Of a DNA stretch of 8,938 bases, positions 2,087 to 8,938 are shown piece by piece. Under the pieces are notes generated by a model. That model ran no database searches. It saw only the letters and a program-made list of their open reading frames with translations, and was not told where the DNA came from. Numbering within the stretch: the first letter of the stretch is position 1; each line of letters starts with the position of its first letter. The translations under genes and the position numbers were made by a program. The stretch is taken from contig JAAEQP010001627.1 in the NCBI GenBank assembly GCA_024231375.1, positions 1 to 8,938 of the forward strand. The letters run 5' to 3'. Origin of the DNA: a bacterium. Lineage in GTDB: Bacteria > Hydrogenedentota > Hydrogenedentia > Hydrogenedentiales > SLHB01.

Positions 2087-2201
2087 ACCCTGCGGTGTCG
2101 GCCTGGTCCTCCTGAGGAGCCCCCGTCCCAATCCCGATGATGCATCCCAAAGACGGCTGTGATACACTGACCCGGCGTTTTCGAGTGTGGAGAACTGTCC
2201 T

Positions 2202-3002
2202 ATGCCAGACAAACCTATGCCGGAGTTCGAGTTCCTTTCGCTGGAGTATTGCGAAGGGTATGCCGTGGTGACCATCGACCGCCCCAAGGCGAACGCCTTG
2301 TCCCTCGAACTGGTGAGCGAGATTACCGACGTCATCGCCTTGCTGGGAGCCGACGAGTCGGTCCGCGCCATCGTGATCACGGGCGCGGGCGAACGGTTTT
2401 TCAGCGGCGGCGCGGACATTCCCACCTTACGTGAGTCTCTCAAAGAGCCCTTCGCCGAAGGGGGACTTCTGGCGGCGGGGCTCATCATGGTCGACGCGAT
2501 CGAGGCGTGCACGAAGCCGGTGGTGGCTGCCGTCAACGGGAACGCGGTCGGCGGGGGCTGTGAACTCATATTGGCGTGCCATTTCCGGATCTGCGCCGAC
2601 ACAGCCCAATTTGGCCAGCCCGAGATCAACCTCGGTATCATCCCTGGATGGGGGGGATGTCACCGTCTGCCTCGCCTGATCGGTGAGGCGCGGGCCCTGG
2701 ATTGGCTCGCAACGGGACGGATGGTGTCTTCCCAGGAAGCATTCGAGGCCGGGCTGGTTTGCAAGGTAACTCCGTTCGCGGACGTACTCAACGCCGCGAA
2801 GGAGTTGGCGAGTCTCCTGGCGTCGCGGCCGCCCGTCGCCATGCGCGCGATCCTGCGTACGGTGCGCGAACGGGCACTCTACCCGGACCGAGGCAGGACC
2901 CTGGAAGCGGAAGGGTTCGCGGAAGCGGGGGCCAGCGAGGATGCCACCGAAGGCGTAACCGCCTTCATCGAGAAACGTTCCCCCCGATTCCGTGGTGTAT
3001 GA
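2202..3002 (+). CDS. Enoyl-CoA hydratase/isomerase family protein (crotonase)
   Basis: This is a 266-residue cytoplasmic crotonase, normal length for the family. It is expected to hydrate 2-enoyl-CoA or carry out a related reaction through an oxyanion-stabilised CoA-thioester enolate. The first oxyanion-hole segment is GERFFSGGADI (residues 63-73). The second is in GNAVGGGCELILAC (113-126), which carries E121 at the classical first glutamate position. FGQPEINLGIIPGWGG (137-152) carries E141, the second catalytic glutamate. Both acid/base residues are therefore present, favouring hydratase activity over a pure isomerase. I chose the ATG at 2202 because GGAGAA (2189-2194) sits 7 bases upstream; a GTG at 2187 would add five residues. 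The stop overlaps the next start (ATGA, 2999-3002), so it is translationally coupled to the ceramidase/C45 fusion. The substrate is unknown; beta-oxidation of released acyl chains is an inference from context. Confidence 0.93.
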   Translation: MPDKPMPEFEFLSLEYCEGYAVVTIDRPKANALSLELVSEITDVIALLGADESVRAIVITGAGERFFSGGADIPTLRESLKEPFAEGGLLAAGLIMVDAIEACTKPVVAAVNGNAVGGGCELILACHFRICADTAQFGQPEINLGIIPGWGGCHRLPRLIGEARALDWLATGRMVSSQEAFEAGLVCKVTPFADVLNAAKELASLLASRPPVAMRAILRTVRERALYPDRGRTLEAEGFAEAGASEDATEGVTAFIEKRSPRFRGV

Positions 3003-5404
3003 GTAGGATGAAGCGATCCGGATTCACTATACTGGCCCTGACAACGCTGGCCCTCTGCGTGACGGCCGCTCCCACTCGCGCGCTCGACGCGGGCGCGGCC
3101 CGGATCGAGATCACGCCGCCCCTTGGCGTACCACTAAACGGCTACTACGACCGCTTGGGCCGGGGCGCGCTCAGCGTTCATGACCCGCTCTGGGCACGGT
3201 GCCTCTACCTCGAAGACGACGACACGCGTCTGCTCATCATCAACGCCGACCTGTGCGTGATCAACCGCGAACTGCGCGACCGCGTGATCGAATTGGCGCC
3301 GAAAGAAGTGCCCGCCGAGAACATCATCCTCACGGCAACCCACACCCACAGCGCCCAAGGCGGCATGGACAAGGATCTGCTGTTCCGCTCGGTATCGGGA
3401 CGCTTCATGCCGGAAGTGCTGGAGGAGACCGCCGGCCGCTTCGCGAAAGCCATGCGCGACGCCTACGCCGCACGCAAACGCGCCACCATCGGATACGGCG
3501 CCTTTGCCCAGGACGACCTGTCGGTCAACCGGCGCGAAGACGACGGCGCCATCGACAAACAGGTCGGCGTGATTCGGGTGGAAGATTCCGACGGGAACCC
3601 CATCGCCATCGTCGGCAACTTCGCGGCCCATCCCACGTCCGTGGGCGTGGACGACGCGTTGTCAGTGTCGGCCGACTACTGCGGCTTCTACTACAACGAA
3701 TTGGAGTCGCTGGCCGGTACGGAATGTGTGGCCATGTTCCTCAACGGAGCGCAAGGCAACCAGACCTGCGGCAACCCCGAAGGCAAGAAGGGTTGGGCAC
3801 GCACGGAATCCATCGGCCGCCTACTGGCACAACGCGTCATGGAGGCCTCTGAAGCCGTAACATGCACGGCCGCGGACCTCCACGTCGGGCATGCCACACC
3901 CAAGTTGCCTCTGGCCATTGCCGGCACGCTCGTGCCTTCGTCGACGATTCTCCACACGCTGGAAATCGACGACCTTCTCATGACCTTCTTCCCCGGCGAA
4001 CCCTGCGTGGAGATTGGCCTCCACATGCGAGAGCTTGCCCTGGCCCGCGGGTATGCCAACCAGTTCACGGTGGGACTCTCCGACGACCACCTGCTGTACT
4101 TCGCACCCCGCGCCTACTACCCGAAACTCTACTACGAAAACGCCATGAGCCTCTACGGACCCCGCATCGAGGACTGGTTCTACACCCAGTTCACCATGCT
4201 CATGACGAAAGGCGAACCCGTACTCGGCCGGCAGCCTGTGACGCCCCCCGAGATCGAGATGCTGCCGGGCGGGTCGCGCATCCATCTGAAAGGCACCCCC
4301 TACGCGGTGGGCTACCAACGGGGCGCGGCCTTCTCCGAGGCTATCCAGGGCGTCTACGCGGATCATGTGGTGAATCCATGCGAAACGGGCGAATACATCC
4401 CGGACAGGGGGATGTGGACCTTGGCCCCCTCCTTCATGGACCTGTCGGTGCTGGCCCTGCCGAACTTGGGCATCAGCATGCGCCCCATGACGGAAGGCAT
4501 TTTCGAACCCGTGTTCGAGGAGATGGAAGGCATGGCCGACGGCGCGGGCCTTCCCTTCGACGCGCTGCTCCTGACGCAGTGCGCGCCGGTCATCGCGGCC
4601 CGCACCGAGACCAAAGACTTGTACCGCGCACCGTTCTGCACCATGTTCGCCGCTACGGGTGACCGGGCAGGCGCCGACGACATCCTCGTGGGCCGGAACT
4701 TCGACTGGGCCGCGCAAGAGCCTCCGGTGATCGTTGAGACGACAACGGATTCGGGACGGCGAACGGTGCAGGTGGGATTCGCCTGGAACACCGGGACCTT
4801 CACAGGCATGAACGACGACGGCCTGGTGGTATGCGTGGAGCGCGTCGAAGCCCTCGGCGAACCATCCATCGACGGACCGGCTATCGAATGGGTGCTCCGG
4901 GAAATCCTCGAGAAGTACCAGACCGTCGACAGTTCCCTGCTCCGACTGGAGAAGGCCGATTACCTGCGCGGATACCACGTGTTACTCGCCGACGCCAATA
5001 CCACGGCCCGCGTGGTGGAACTCGGACGCGATCGGGTCGTCCGGAAGGCCGAGGGAGGACTTCTCCTGGGGATCCTGCCGCCGAAGCCACCCAGCGCCGA
5101 AGACACGGAAGGTGCGCCAACCACGCCGACTGTGGACGCCTCTGCCCTTGACCCGGCCGCGGTACGGTACGGACGGGTAGCGGAGTTGCTGGACGACGAG
5201 CGCATCATCGCGCCGAGCGAGATTCAGACGGTGTTGGCCGACCGGCACGAGACCGCACGGGATACCGAACAGATATTCGGCGCCACGACACGGTGCAGCG
5301 TGGTCTTTGAACCAAAGGCGCGTCGGCTCCACGTCTCGTTTCCGCTGGAAAGTGGCGACGCCGGTCCCTACACCACCATCACGCTGACGGAGGAATCGCC
5401 ATGA
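2999..5404 (+). CDS. Exported fusion: neutral/alkaline ceramidase-like domain + peptidase C45 (NAAA/acyltransferase-like) Ntn hydrolase
   Basis: This is an 801-residue secreted protein. Residues 1-28 form a signal peptide: MSRMKR, a hydrophobic core at 8-23, and likely cleavage after TRA. L-A-L-C is not a good lipobox. Residues ~29-415 match the neutral ceramidase N-terminal domain: ARIEITPPLGVPLNGYY (34-50), THTHS (114-118), NFAAHPTS with H211, PGEPCVEIG with E334, and Y367 in HLLYFAP. These correspond to the zinc-site residues of bacterial neutral ceramidase. The GDVSPN-type motif reads GNQTCG (253-258). Residues ~425-801 match C45: HLKGTPYAVGYQRG, then C547 in FCTMFAATG, the probable autocatalytically exposed nucleophile, and GRNFDW with R566 and D569. 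The usual TNHF-like segment is not evident; a Pro/Thr/Glu-rich stretch occupies 694-712. The start at 2999 overlaps the upstream stop. The frame is open back to 2702, but that part is antisense-type shadow of the hydratase. Substrates are presumably N-acyl amides or amides of similar lipids, which is inference. Confidence 0.9.
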   Translation: MSRMKRSGFTILALTTLALCVTAAPTRALDAGAARIEITPPLGVPLNGYYDRLGRGALSVHDPLWARCLYLEDDDTRLLIINADLCVINRELRDRVIELAPKEVPAENIILTATHTHSAQGGMDKDLLFRSVSGRFMPEVLEETAGRFAKAMRDAYAARKRATIGYGAFAQDDLSVNRREDDGAIDKQVGVIRVEDSDGNPIAIVGNFAAHPTSVGVDDALSVSADYCGFYYNELESLAGTECVAMFLNGAQGNQTCGNPEGKKGWARTESIGRLLAQRVMEASEAVTCTAADLHVGHATPKLPLAIAGTLVPSSTILHTLEIDDLLMTFFPGEPCVEIGLHMRELALARGYANQFTVGLSDDHLLYFAPRAYYPKLYYENAMSLYGPRIEDWFYTQFTMLMTKGEPVLGRQPVTPPEIEMLPGGSRIHLKGTPYAVGYQRGAAFSEAIQGVYADHVVNPCETGEYIPDRGMWTLAPSFMDLSVLALPNLGISMRPMTEGIFEPVFEEMEGMADGAGLPFDALLLTQCAPVIAARTETKDLYRAPFCTMFAATGDRAGADDILVGRNFDWAAQEPPVIVETTTDSGRRTVQVGFAWNTGTFTGMNDDGLVVCVERVEALGEPSIDGPAIEWVLREILEKYQTVDSSLLRLEKADYLRGYHVLLADANTTARVVELGRDRVVRKAEGGLLLGILPPKPPSAEDTEGAPTTPTVDASALDPAAVRYGRVAELLDDERIIAPSEIQTVLADRHETARDTEQIFGATTRCSVVFEPKARRLHVSFPLESGDAGPYTTITLTEESP
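5389..5395 (+). promoter_or_regulatory. Strong Shine-Dalgarno for the downstream membrane protein
   Basis: GGAGGAA lies inside the end of the ceramidase/C45 gene, 5 bases before the ATG at 5401. It fixes the start of the next gene and suggests that gene can be initiated efficiently as well as by coupling through the ATGA overlap (5401-5404). Confidence 0.75.
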
Positions 5405-7041
5405 GCGAGGCCGTCCGGTCATACAGCGCCAACGCGGGCCCGACGCGCAAAGGGCGCAAAGGGTGCCTCCGCGTGCGGAGCCTTCTGGCGCTTGTCCTGC
5501 TGGTCGTGATCGGGTACGGGTTCTGGACCACGCGCGACACCCACCCCGCGGCGCGGCTGGTGCCCACAGGCCAGAAATATCTGGTGGCCTTCACCGATCT
5601 CCTCAACACACGGCAGCGAATGGCCGAAAGTTCGGTCTGGGACGCCGTCCCCGAAGGCACAGCGCTGGCGGCTGTTCCGAAAGCGCTGGGACAAGAACTT
5701 GAACTGCCGGCCGGCCTTCCGGGCGGTGTGCCGGAGTGGATTCTCAACAACCTCTTCCACGAAGGCCTGTACCTGACCGGCAACGACCTGGACGCGTTCT
5801 CCGATGCCCTGGTGGTGACGAAAATGTCCCGCGTAGGGAAGCTGCTGGAGTGGATCCATGCCTTCGTTCCCGGCATCGAAACGGACCACGCGGGCGGCCT
5901 CGACCTCCGCCACATCCAGGATCCGGACGTATACTACGCCGTGCGCGGACGCGTCCTCGTGCTGTCGCGGTCGCGGGATGCGCTGGTCCGTTCGCTCACG
6001 TTGACTTCCGAAACGGCGATCGCCGAGGAAACATTGCTGGCGACCGTCAGTGGCGCAGGCCGCGAAGACGTGCGCGGCACCTTCGCCCTCGACAAAGACG
6101 ACCCTCTCGGCACGTGCTTCCAGCATGTCGGATTCGCCATTCGGCTCGATGCCTCCGAGGCGCGAGCCACGTGCCGTGTCGTGCTGCATCCGGCCTGCCA
6201 AGAGCGCTGGCGGGCGTTGCTGAACGGCGCGACCTCCGGGCCATTGATGGCGCCTCCGCCTGGCATGGTGTCGATCTCGGCGAATTTCGGCAAGCCCGTG
6301 GAGGCCTGCTGGGCGGCCATCGGCGAAGGGCTGACCAACTCCCGTAGAGACGTGTGGCCCGATATGCCCGAGACCGTTCCCGCCATCTTCTCCGAGGATC
6401 AATGGCGCGAATGGCAAGCGGTAGAAGAGGGCGTCGAACTCGGACTGGGGTCGTTCTTGACGAACATCGTCGGGCCGCTCGGACCCGGGTTCCGGGTGAG
6501 TTGGTGCGCCGTGGACTTGAATGAGATGATGCCCATGCCGGAGTTGGCGGGCACATTCGATGGGAACCCGGATGCCCTCGACGTGTTCCGGGAAGCCCTG
6601 CCGCCCATCCCCGAGGACGCGCCGCGGTGGGCATCGTTTCCACGATTCGAACCCGAACTGAACACGGTGACGCTTCCCATGATCGGGGGGCCGGCACTCG
6701 AACCCACGGCGGCGCCGTACGGCAGCGGTATCCTGGTGAGCACAAGCAGCCGGTTGGCGGCCGCGTTAATGGAGAGCGGCGGAGTCGCAGGTCAACTCCC
6801 GGAGGCCGGGAACCTGCATATCGCGGTTCGCCCGTATCCCTGCGTCGAAAGCGTGGTGGAGGCCGGGCGGCTGTTGGTAGACCAAGGGGTCATGCGGGGG
6901 CATACCCCCAAGACGTATGCGGCGATGACGGACCGGTGGCTCGTCCAGGCAGGCGCTGTGGAAGAAGCCAGCCTGCACGCTGCGGTTGACGGCGGGGATA
7001 TTGCCCTCGACGTTCGGGTTGTCTGCCCGGCGCGTCGGTAG
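5401..7041 (+). CDS. Membrane-anchored protein of unknown function
   Basis: I do not recognise this 546-residue protein. Its N-terminus is basic (R16, K17, R19, K20, R24, R26) and is followed by a single hydrophobic segment at about 27-42 (SLLALVLLVVIGYGFW). This predicts an N-in anchor with about 500 residues outside the cytoplasm. The remainder is a soluble alpha/beta-looking sequence with no catalytic motif I can name. Two sections look loosely repeated in style: hydrophobic strands ending in short acidic turns, as in the ELxGTFDGNPDALDVF region near residue 380. Large envelope proteins with this layout and no assigned function are common in planctomycete-like lineages. The start overlaps the ceramidase/C45 stop by 4 bases and has a strong Shine-Dalgarno, so it is the third member of that operon. 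A partner or anchor role for the secreted hydrolase is possible but unproven. Confidence 0.85.
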   Translation: MSEAVRSYSANAGPTRKGRKGCLRVRSLLALVLLVVIGYGFWTTRDTHPAARLVPTGQKYLVAFTDLLNTRQRMAESSVWDAVPEGTALAAVPKALGQELELPAGLPGGVPEWILNNLFHEGLYLTGNDLDAFSDALVVTKMSRVGKLLEWIHAFVPGIETDHAGGLDLRHIQDPDVYYAVRGRVLVLSRSRDALVRSLTLTSETAIAEETLLATVSGAGREDVRGTFALDKDDPLGTCFQHVGFAIRLDASEARATCRVVLHPACQERWRALLNGATSGPLMAPPPGMVSISANFGKPVEACWAAIGEGLTNSRRDVWPDMPETVPAIFSEDQWREWQAVEEGVELGLGSFLTNIVGPLGPGFRVSWCAVDLNEMMPMPELAGTFDGNPDALDVFREALPPIPEDAPRWASFPRFEPELNTVTLPMIGGPALEPTAAPYGSGILVSTSSRLAAALMESGGVAGQLPEAGNLHIAVRPYPCVESVVEAGRLLVDQGVMRGHTPKTYAAMTDRWLVQAGAVEEASLHAAVDGGDIALDVRVVCPARR

Positions 7042-7188: not shown

Positions 7189-8025
7189 ATGACTGACACA
7201 CGCGTAGACGAAGCACGCCCCAACGAGACAGGCCAGGCGCCATCCCCGGGGGAGCAAGGAGACTTCATCGTCGACGAGGCGACCGATGAGGTGCTCCGGC
7301 TGCAACTGGACATGTTCGAGGGCCCCTTCGAGGTGCTTCTCTATCTGATTCGATCCCAGGAGATCGATATCTTCGACATCCCTGCCGTGAAGATCACCGA
7401 GCAGTACCTGCGCTTCCTCGACCTCATGCGCGACGAAAGCCTGGAAGTGACCGGGGACTTCCTGGTCATGGCGGCCACCCTCATTCAGATCAAGTCTCGG
7501 ATGCTCCTGCCCGCGGAGACGGACGGCGAGGATGAGGAGGACTTCGAAGAAGAGGATCCGAGACTCGAACTGGTCGAGAAACTGCTGGAATATCGCAAGT
7601 TTCGCGGTATCACCGAACGCCTGGCGGAACTGGAGTCGGAACGGGAGAACTGGTACACGCGGCGCGTGACACCCAAGTTCGAGCCTGCCGAGGAGGAGGA
7701 AGAAGAACTCCTCGAAGTGACGATGTACGATCTCATCACGGCGTTCCGCAGTGTGCTGCGCTACATCTCCGACGACCTGGTGCATACGGTCGAAGGCGAA
7801 GAGCATTCCATCGACGAAAAGATCGAGGTGCTGCAAGACCGCCTCATGCGGGAAGGCAGCGTCGCCTGGTCGGATGTCTTCAAAGGATGTCGAAGCCGGA
7901 TCGAACTGGTGTGCTGTTTCCTCGCCATCCTCGAGCTGTGCCGGATGGGACAGGCCCGCGCGCATCAGCACCGGACCTTCGAGGAGATCCGCCTCTTCCA
8001 GGTGGCCGAGGGTGTGACGGGGTGA
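7189..8025 (+). CDS. scpA: Segregation and condensation protein A (kleisin subunit of SMC-ScpAB)
   Basis: ScpA bridges the SMC ATPase heads and binds ScpB to form the bacterial condensin that compacts and segregates the chromosome. This copy has 278 residues, slightly longer than the usual 240-270. The excess is a polar N-terminal extension of about 35 residues. The kleisin N-terminal domain is unmistakable: LQLDMFEGPFEVLLYLI (38-54), EIDIFDIPAVKITEQYL (58-74) and a conserved FLVMAATLIQIKSRMLLP helix (91-108) that contacts the SMC neck. A very acidic linker follows (113-123), with a second one at 167-174. The C-terminal winged-helix region ends with FLAILELCRMGQARAHQ (244-260), which binds the SMC cap. 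The stop overlaps the yraN start by one base (TGATG, 8023-8027). The usual neighbour scpB is not in the window. Confidence 0.96.
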   Translation: MTDTRVDEARPNETGQAPSPGEQGDFIVDEATDEVLRLQLDMFEGPFEVLLYLIRSQEIDIFDIPAVKITEQYLRFLDLMRDESLEVTGDFLVMAATLIQIKSRMLLPAETDGEDEEDFEEEDPRLELVEKLLEYRKFRGITERLAELESERENWYTRRVTPKFEPAEEEEEELLEVTMYDLITAFRSVLRYISDDLVHTVEGEEHSIDEKIEVLQDRLMREGSVAWSDVFKGCRSRIELVCCFLAILELCRMGQARAHQHRTFEEIRLFQVAEGVTG

Positions 8026-8402
8026 TGTGGCCCTTCCGCCGAAGGATCCTGCCCTTGGGCGCCCGAGGCGAGCAGGCGGCGGCCAAGTATCTCAAGCGGG
8101 CGGGTATGCGGATTCTGGGACGAAACGTTCACCTGGGCCGCTACGAGGTGGATATCATCGCCCAGGAAGGCGACACCATCGCCCTGGTCGAGGTGAAAAC
8201 GCGGGCAACGGACGCCTTCGCAACACCCGATGTGAACATCACCCACACCAAACGGCAACACCTCATCTCGGCGGCACGCCAATACGCCGACGAACGCGAC
8301 GATCCCGACATCTCCTACCGGTTCGACGTGGTGACGGTGGTCTGGCCCGAGACGGGCACGCCCGCGATCACGCACTACCGAGACGCATTCCCCGCTCGGT
8401 AG
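8025..8402 (+). CDS. yraN: YraN family (UPF0102) endonuclease-fold protein
   Basis: This is a 125-residue protein of the YraN/UPF0102 family, normal length. It has a restriction-endonuclease-like core of unestablished cellular function, often proposed to act in DNA processing or recombination. The PD-(D/E)xK-type pattern is complete: GARGEQAAAKYL (12-23) with E16, then GRYEVDIIA (38-46) with E41 and D43, and VEVKTR (55-60) with E56 and K58. A trailing RFDVV (99-103) is also typical. The frame is open upstream to 7887 inside scpA, but homology begins at the ATG at 8025, whose A is the last base of the scpA TGA. Tight coupling with scpA implies co-translation. The gene ends 21 bases before the convergent DUF5989 stop. 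Confidence 0.93.
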   Translation: MWPFRRRILPLGARGEQAAAKYLKRAGMRILGRNVHLGRYEVDIIAQEGDTIALVEVKTRATDAFATPDVNITHTKRQHLISAARQYADERDDPDISYRFDVVTVVWPETGTPAITHYRDAFPAR

Positions 8403-8582: not shown

Positions 8583-8938
8583 CTAGAACTGATTGAGGTA
8601 TCGCTCAAATTCGTCCGGCTGCTCTTCCGCATCTTCCCAATACGACTCGGACTTGAGGTCCCAGTCCCGCTTCAGCGGATCGTTGCCACGCCATTGGTTG
8701 ATGAATCGGGCCGGAACTATCATGAGATAGAAAACAAGCGACAGCATCACGCGCGTCATGATCCAGTTGAGGACCTCGGCGAGCTTCATCCACGCCACGA
8801 AAACGGGACGTAGCAGCGAAGGCACCACGATCCCGGCCACCAGGAACACGCTGGCCACCGCGAAGAACCACGGCAACATCTGACCAGCCAGCCATGAGCG
8901 CACCAGGCCCAACACGACGAAGGCCGCGGCCATGAGCA
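8583..8938 (-). CDS. SxtJ-family membrane protein, N-terminus cut by window edge
   Basis: The last ~118 codons are visible; the frame is open to the right edge. A Met at 8933 could be internal, because the preceding codon is still coding and family members are about 130 residues. Three hydrophobic segments lie at about residues 1-15, 20-37 and 60-74 (numbered from that Met). A conserved-looking WMKLAEVLNWIMTRVMLSL and IVPARFINQ lie in the region leading into and out of the last helix. A polar tail with DPLKRDWDLKSESYW (85-99) follows. This matches the small SxtJ proteins named from the saxitoxin cluster, which in many bacteria accompany a SxtI/NodU-type carbamoyltransferase and a DUF5989 protein. 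The carbamoyltransferase gene would be upstream on the minus strand, beyond 8938. The biochemical role of SxtJ is unknown. Confidence 0.85.
   Translation of the reverse strand, partial: LMAAAFVVLGLVRSWLAGQMLPWFFAVASVFLVAGIVVPSLLRPVFVAWMKLAEVLNWIMTRVMLSLVFYLMIVPARFINQWRGNDPLKRDWDLKSESYWEDAEEQPDEFERYLNQF

Follow-up and report, generated by a model that had tools for sequence, protein, structure and literature searches.

A predicted exported fusion of neutral-ceramidase-like and C45-type amidase domains, with a putatively TP0453-like partner gene, in the Hydrogenedentota group

The window analysed here (a stretch of 8,938 nucleotides from a Hydrogenedentota contig) carries a gene in which a neutral-ceramidase-like zinc domain and a C45/AAT Ntn-hydrolase domain are joined in one protein, followed directly by a partner gene with a predicted TP0453-like fold. 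Sequence comparisons and structure models show both domains, their conserved active-site residues, the linkage to the partner and the coupled evolution of the two halves; self-cleavage, zinc, hydrolysis, a lipid substrate and an order of action are what we infer. Our main reading, to which we give a probability of roughly 0.4, is that the product is an exported, self-cleaving amide hydrolase with two sites, most likely working on N-acylated lipids together with its TP0453-like partner. The component folds are already known, but neither the fusion architecture nor its phylum-wide spread, the partner or the copies that have lost both sites turned up among the papers listed by our literature searches.

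Two amidase folds in one predicted exported protein

The features of the gene and its two neighbours are as follows, conservation counts referring to the best 120 of 264 homologues, the window's own protein being one row.

2187..3002, + strand: enoyl-CoA hydratase gene (PF00378, E 3e-59), overlapping the start of the fusion by 4 nt (ATGA)
2999..5404, + strand: fused gene, predicted exported neutral-ceramidase-like domain plus C45/AAT Ntn-hydrolase domain, 801 aa
2999..3082, + strand: probable signal peptide, residues 1-28 (by eye; helix 3-22 in the model)
3083..4216, + strand: neutral-ceramidase-like catalytic domain, residues ~29-406
3341..3349, + strand: codons 115-117, His-Thr-His; H115 predicted zinc ligand (human H194), 120/120; H117 pocket histidine (human H196, 4wgk alignment), 118/120
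3530..3532, + strand: R178 (human Arg257, 4wgk alignment), 120/120
3629..3631, + strand: H211, predicted zinc ligand (human H303 by alignment), 118/120
3998..4000, + strand: E334, predicted zinc ligand (human E540 by alignment), 120/120
4097..4099, + strand: Y367 (human Y579 by alignment), at a zinc-ligand position, 118/120
4133..4135, + strand: Y379 (human Y591 by alignment), 117/120
4271..5401, + strand: C45/AAT Ntn-hydrolase domain, residues 425-801
4637..4639, + strand: C547, predicted nucleophile and autocleavage site (F546/C547), 118/120
5401..7041, + strand: partner gene, 546 aa, predicted TP0453-like fold, overlapping the fusion by 4 nt (ATGA)

PF04734 and PF03417 are the only Pfam families matched by the fusion protein at E <= 1. 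The first domain reaches the Pfam gathering score and has the fold of the neutral/alkaline ceramidase superfamily, the second has both the family score and the fold of C45/AAT, and the structure model gives both folds at high confidence. The first-pass annotation had proposed two unrelated amidase folds in one secreted protein; Pfam and the model confirm the two folds in one chain, while the suggestion of convergent activities on one substrate class or of sequential deacylation finds partial support. They also place the C45 domain where it was expected, after residue 425 (425-801), and in the position of the C-terminal Ig-like domain, since the model aligns to 2zws over 1-489 only and C45 comes next. 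Of its C45/NAAA-like label, the C45/AAT part stands on score and fold, whereas the NAAA/acid ceramidase part reduces to similarity of fold, the profile of that family (which we take to be PF02275) being unmatched in a Pfam search at E <= 1. Judging from its sequence, the protein is probably exported, to the periplasm or envelope.

The zinc domain carries all the zinc ligands and pocket residues looked for in PF04734 (H115, H211, E334, Y367, H117, R178 and Y379). The zinc ligands of the human enzyme are H194, H303, E540 and Y579, and in the alignment a single offset of 98 accounts for the four numbers. In spite of this likeness, neutral ceramidases (2zws of Pseudomonas aeruginosa and 4wgk, human) are 22-23% identical to the domain, and the C-terminal part of their chain has no counterpart in the fusion protein: neutral ceramidase has a C-terminal Ig-like domain, which is absent here and C45 follows instead. 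The cut-off of the NCBIfam neutral ceramidase model NF041649 is missed by far (37.7 vs 1200 bits), and the residue Ser274/Ser354 of neutral ceramidase falls at a position (column 256) that is variable in the homologues (R 63, T 44, A 7, S 3, K 2, C 1 of the 120) and is Thr, by alignment, in the window's protein. A true neutral ceramidase equivalog was accordingly rejected on the cut-off, on Ser274/Ser354 and on the Ig-like domain. A review (PMC6952831) describes His196, Arg257, Tyr579 and Tyr591 as critical in the human enzyme and Ser354 as stabilising the position of Arg257; on our reading, activity need therefore not end with the loss of that serine.

In the C45 domain, the putative nucleophile is accompanied, in the same 120 homologues, by R566 (117/120), D569 (119/120), N605 (120/120) and R723 (119, with one gap), which is the nucleophile Cys with conserved Arg/Asp/Asn/Arg of the C45/AAT family, the roles of these four in the site being the ones we assume. 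Residue 547 aligns structurally with the residue that opens the mature beta chain in NAAA, in acid ceramidase and in bile salt hydrolases, and the sole run of at least three residues with pLDDT below 50 is 539-542, just before C547; in the model, such a low-confidence linker is compatible with autoproteolysis at that point. The best structural match is the acyltransferase 2x1c. Unlike the isopenicillin N acyltransferase/C45 family to which it belongs (PF03417, NF040521), the fusion appears to be exported and adds a zinc-amidase-type domain of ~400 residues before the prosegment, and its predicted cleavage comes after F546 rather than after what is presumably Gly in fungal isopenicillin N acyltransferase. 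Acid ceramidase and NAAA (5u81, 6dxw) differ as well, with 12-13% identity and no zinc domain.

Distribution and coupled evolution of the two domains

The protein search returned 264 homologues at E <= 0.001 among 7995 candidates scored; the 120 listed all contain PF04734, and 102 of them contain PF03417 too (precomputed table). How widely the architecture occurs, a question raised by the first-pass annotation, can now be answered: of the 68 Hydrogenedentota-group genomes, 61 have a single frame that spans both domains, one copy each, and the fusion is also found in Omnitrophota and a Planctomycetota group. The remaining Hydrogenedentota-group genomes comprise two in which a contig end leaves a fragment, one with a ceramidase-like match only (G066) and four without any match at E <= 1e-60. 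The same annotation had named an assembly error joining two genes as something that would refute the fusion; the gene is real, and an assembly or frameshift error is refuted by the identical architecture in those 61 genomes and by the 102 homologues with both families in one protein.

Outside the group, a match at E <= 1e-8 occurs in 17 of 193 Omnitrophota genomes (seven fused, eight as neighbouring genes, one cut by a contig end, one with the C45 part only), and at least two of 149 Planctomycetota-group genomes have the fusion. The latter group also holds many unfused copies of both families, so that the substrate does not follow from belonging to a family. Over 80 sequences (79 loci and the window) we counted 44 fused genes, 19 neighbouring pairs (18 in Omnitrophota, one in a deltaproteobacterium) and 17 ceramidase-like parts alone, of which three (L039, L050, L064) are cut by contig ends. 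No C45 neighbour was found for the Omnitrophota ceramidase-like genes L052 and L072, both with room for one; the genome of L072 has a ceramidase-like/C45 pair at another place. Two labels need care: L038, on a 3-kb contig labelled Robiginitomaculum, is probably misbinned, and L014 is labelled Nitrospiraceae but belongs to G060, a genome placed with Hydrogenedentota in the collection.

In all 19 pairs the ceramidase-like gene precedes the C45 gene on the same strand; wherever the start is readable, both members begin, by eye, like signal peptides, and in L044, L054 and L068 both resemble lipoproteins, again by eye. Quick-search trees of the two domains (61 rows each) both need four changes between the fused and split states, so that fusion or splitting took place repeatedly with the pair retained. 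The distances measured in one tree follow those in the other: r is 0.95 over 22 Omnitrophota rows and 0.83 over 38 rows of Hydrogenedentota type, with none of 2000 permutations as high, common ancestry by itself inflating such values. The two domains could in principle be ancestral neighbours fused by chance, with no functional coupling. Gene order may persist alone, as one gene family lies upstream in 12 Omnitrophota loci, and its member L076 resembles tRNA nucleotidyltransferase/poly(A) polymerase. However, the order ceramidase-like then C45 is common to distant phyla, the pair was retained through four or more switches of state, and both sites were lost jointly in two groups, all of which makes chance very improbable.

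Some loci at the margins of this distribution are recorded here. Two ceramidase-like genes stand in tandem on the Nitrospirota-labelled contigs L046 (1929-5091) and L057 (1594-5023), short contigs on which no C45 gene was found; L057 also has a member of an alpha/beta-hydrolase cluster that occurs near Omnitrophota pairs. The Planctomycetota-group fusions L137 (6658-8937) and L138 (6401-8722) have Ser at Ser274/Ser354, which most Hydrogenedentota fusions lack. So does the ceramidase-like part of the deltaproteobacterial pair (L071, 7905-11059), which is followed by an aldehyde dehydrogenase gene and whose C45 part matched no Pfam family at E <= 0.1.

Active-site loss and the downstream partner

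Among the 61 fused Hydrogenedentota-group copies, 46 keep both residue sets as far as they extend; these include five cut at contig ends (three before R723, two without the N-terminal part), L002 with an alignment gap at N605, and five with His or Gln for Arg566. Four copies keep the zinc site and have lost Cys547, ten have lost residues of both sites, Cys547 included, and one (L136) has a dead zinc site and a changed D569 but retains Cys547. The damage can be partial: L130, one of the ten, has lost R178, Y367 and Y379, while H115, H117, H211 and E334 remain. When the active-site columns are removed before a quick-search tree is built, the copies whose zinc site is damaged form two groups, one of seven rows including L136 (branch support 97) and one of four (support 99), whereas the four C45-only losses form a single group (support 100). 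The loss of both sites together in some lineages suggests that the two domains work as one unit, even if this joint loss amounts to two events, too few for significance in a paired test.

The doubly damaged proteins are nevertheless still selected for, because their second codon positions change less than their third (0.23 vs 0.54 in L118/L136, 0.26 vs 0.65 in L117/L122 and 0.37 vs 0.61 in a third pair with both sites damaged), as is likewise seen in intact pairs. The partner gene, moreover, is kept beside all nine of the ten double-loss copies that have downstream room, and lies directly downstream of the fusion in 54 of 54 Hydrogenedentota-group loci with room. It was not found at Omnitrophota loci, by gene clustering or by a profile search of L139-L145, nor beside two Planctomycetota-group fusions, one of which has only ~335 nt of room.

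No Pfam family match was found for the partner protein. Its predicted N-terminal helix (20-43) is hydrophobic by eye, and would probably anchor it in the membrane. The apparent likeness to TP0453 of Treponema pallidum (3k8i, 3k8j) is one of fold only, at 7-8% identity and with TP0453 about half the length; TP0453 is a proposed lipid carrier with a described lipoprotein anchor, instead of which the partner has its predicted helix.

Proposed action and its alternatives

If the main reading is correct, the chain would be exported and would then fold, and the C45 part would cut itself before Cys547. Two chains would result and remain associated, a long one made up of the whole zinc domain and the alpha part of C45, and a beta chain (547-801). 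A zinc-bound water, held by H115, H211, E334 and Y367, would hydrolyse one amide bond and the Cys547 site another, either in one substrate or in consecutive ones; the likeliest substrates are N-acylated lipids, which the TP0453-like partner, probably membrane-anchored, may present or carry. The C45 domain probably acts after the zinc domain or requires it, because C45-only loss is seen in four copies and the reverse in one borderline copy. As doubly damaged copies are kept together with their partner, part of the role, such as lipid or partner binding, may need no catalysis.

This last point could be extended to a largely non-catalytic, lipid-binding envelope complex with the TP0453-like partner, hydrolase activity being secondary. 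The purifying selection on doubly damaged copies and their nine of nine retained partners would fit it, as would a partner linkage (54/54) stricter than active-site conservation (46/61), but both sites are near invariant in the best 120 homologues and kept in those 46 genomes, and we regard it as unlikely. Somewhat less unlikely is that only one domain is catalytic, the other serving as a scaffold, in substrate binding or in maturation: the four Cys547-less copies with a zinc site, all in one well-supported group, point that way, and so do some C45 domains, mainly Cys-less, on much longer branches than their own zinc domains, against which stands again the joint retention in 46 of 61 copies. 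The chemistry itself might be acyl transfer rather than hydrolysis, one or both domains making N-acyl lipids or swapping acyl chains in the envelope. Isopenicillin N acyltransferase, a member of the C45 family, is a true acyltransferase, and the reaction of neutral ceramidase is reversible; the C45 domain finds its best match in that acyltransferase, and of 52 loci with room, 18 have an enoyl-CoA hydratase gene upstream on the fusion's strand. In the other 34, however, it was not found, and exported proteins would not normally meet acyl-CoA, so that we hold acyl transfer to be as unlikely as the non-catalytic complex.

Neutral ceramidase and the acid-ceramidase/NAAA/C45 fold have arrived at similar chemistry by unrelated routes. 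Their joining in several fused and split forms, together with the joint loss, indicates one shared substrate or pathway, and a gene present once in each of 61 genomes, out of 68 from an uncultured phylum, should matter to its cells. Returning to the two-site hydrolase, we tentatively suggest, as possible though somewhat doubtful, that the fusion and its partner form a phylum-wide envelope machine for an undescribed N-acyl lipid, with two convergently evolved sites so interdependent that the loss of one brings the loss of the other, and that it twice became a double pseudoenzyme that binds lipid with its partner. The gene would suggest a novel N-acyl lipid in the Hydrogenedentota group, and natural copies without the C45 Cys, or without residues of both sites, make the order in which the domains act and a non-catalytic role testable with recombinant protein.

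The rest of the window holds a permease gene of the PF00860 xanthine/uracil permease family (2-1042), which extends beyond it, and a histone-deacetylase-like gene (1043-2641), whose 532-aa frame matches PF00850 over residues 241-520 and is probably non-coding in its first ~240 residues. Beyond the partner lie a ScpA gene and then a UPF0102 gene (7189-8402), and on the minus strand a small gene (8583-8933) matches PF19588 SxtJ at E 1e-6.
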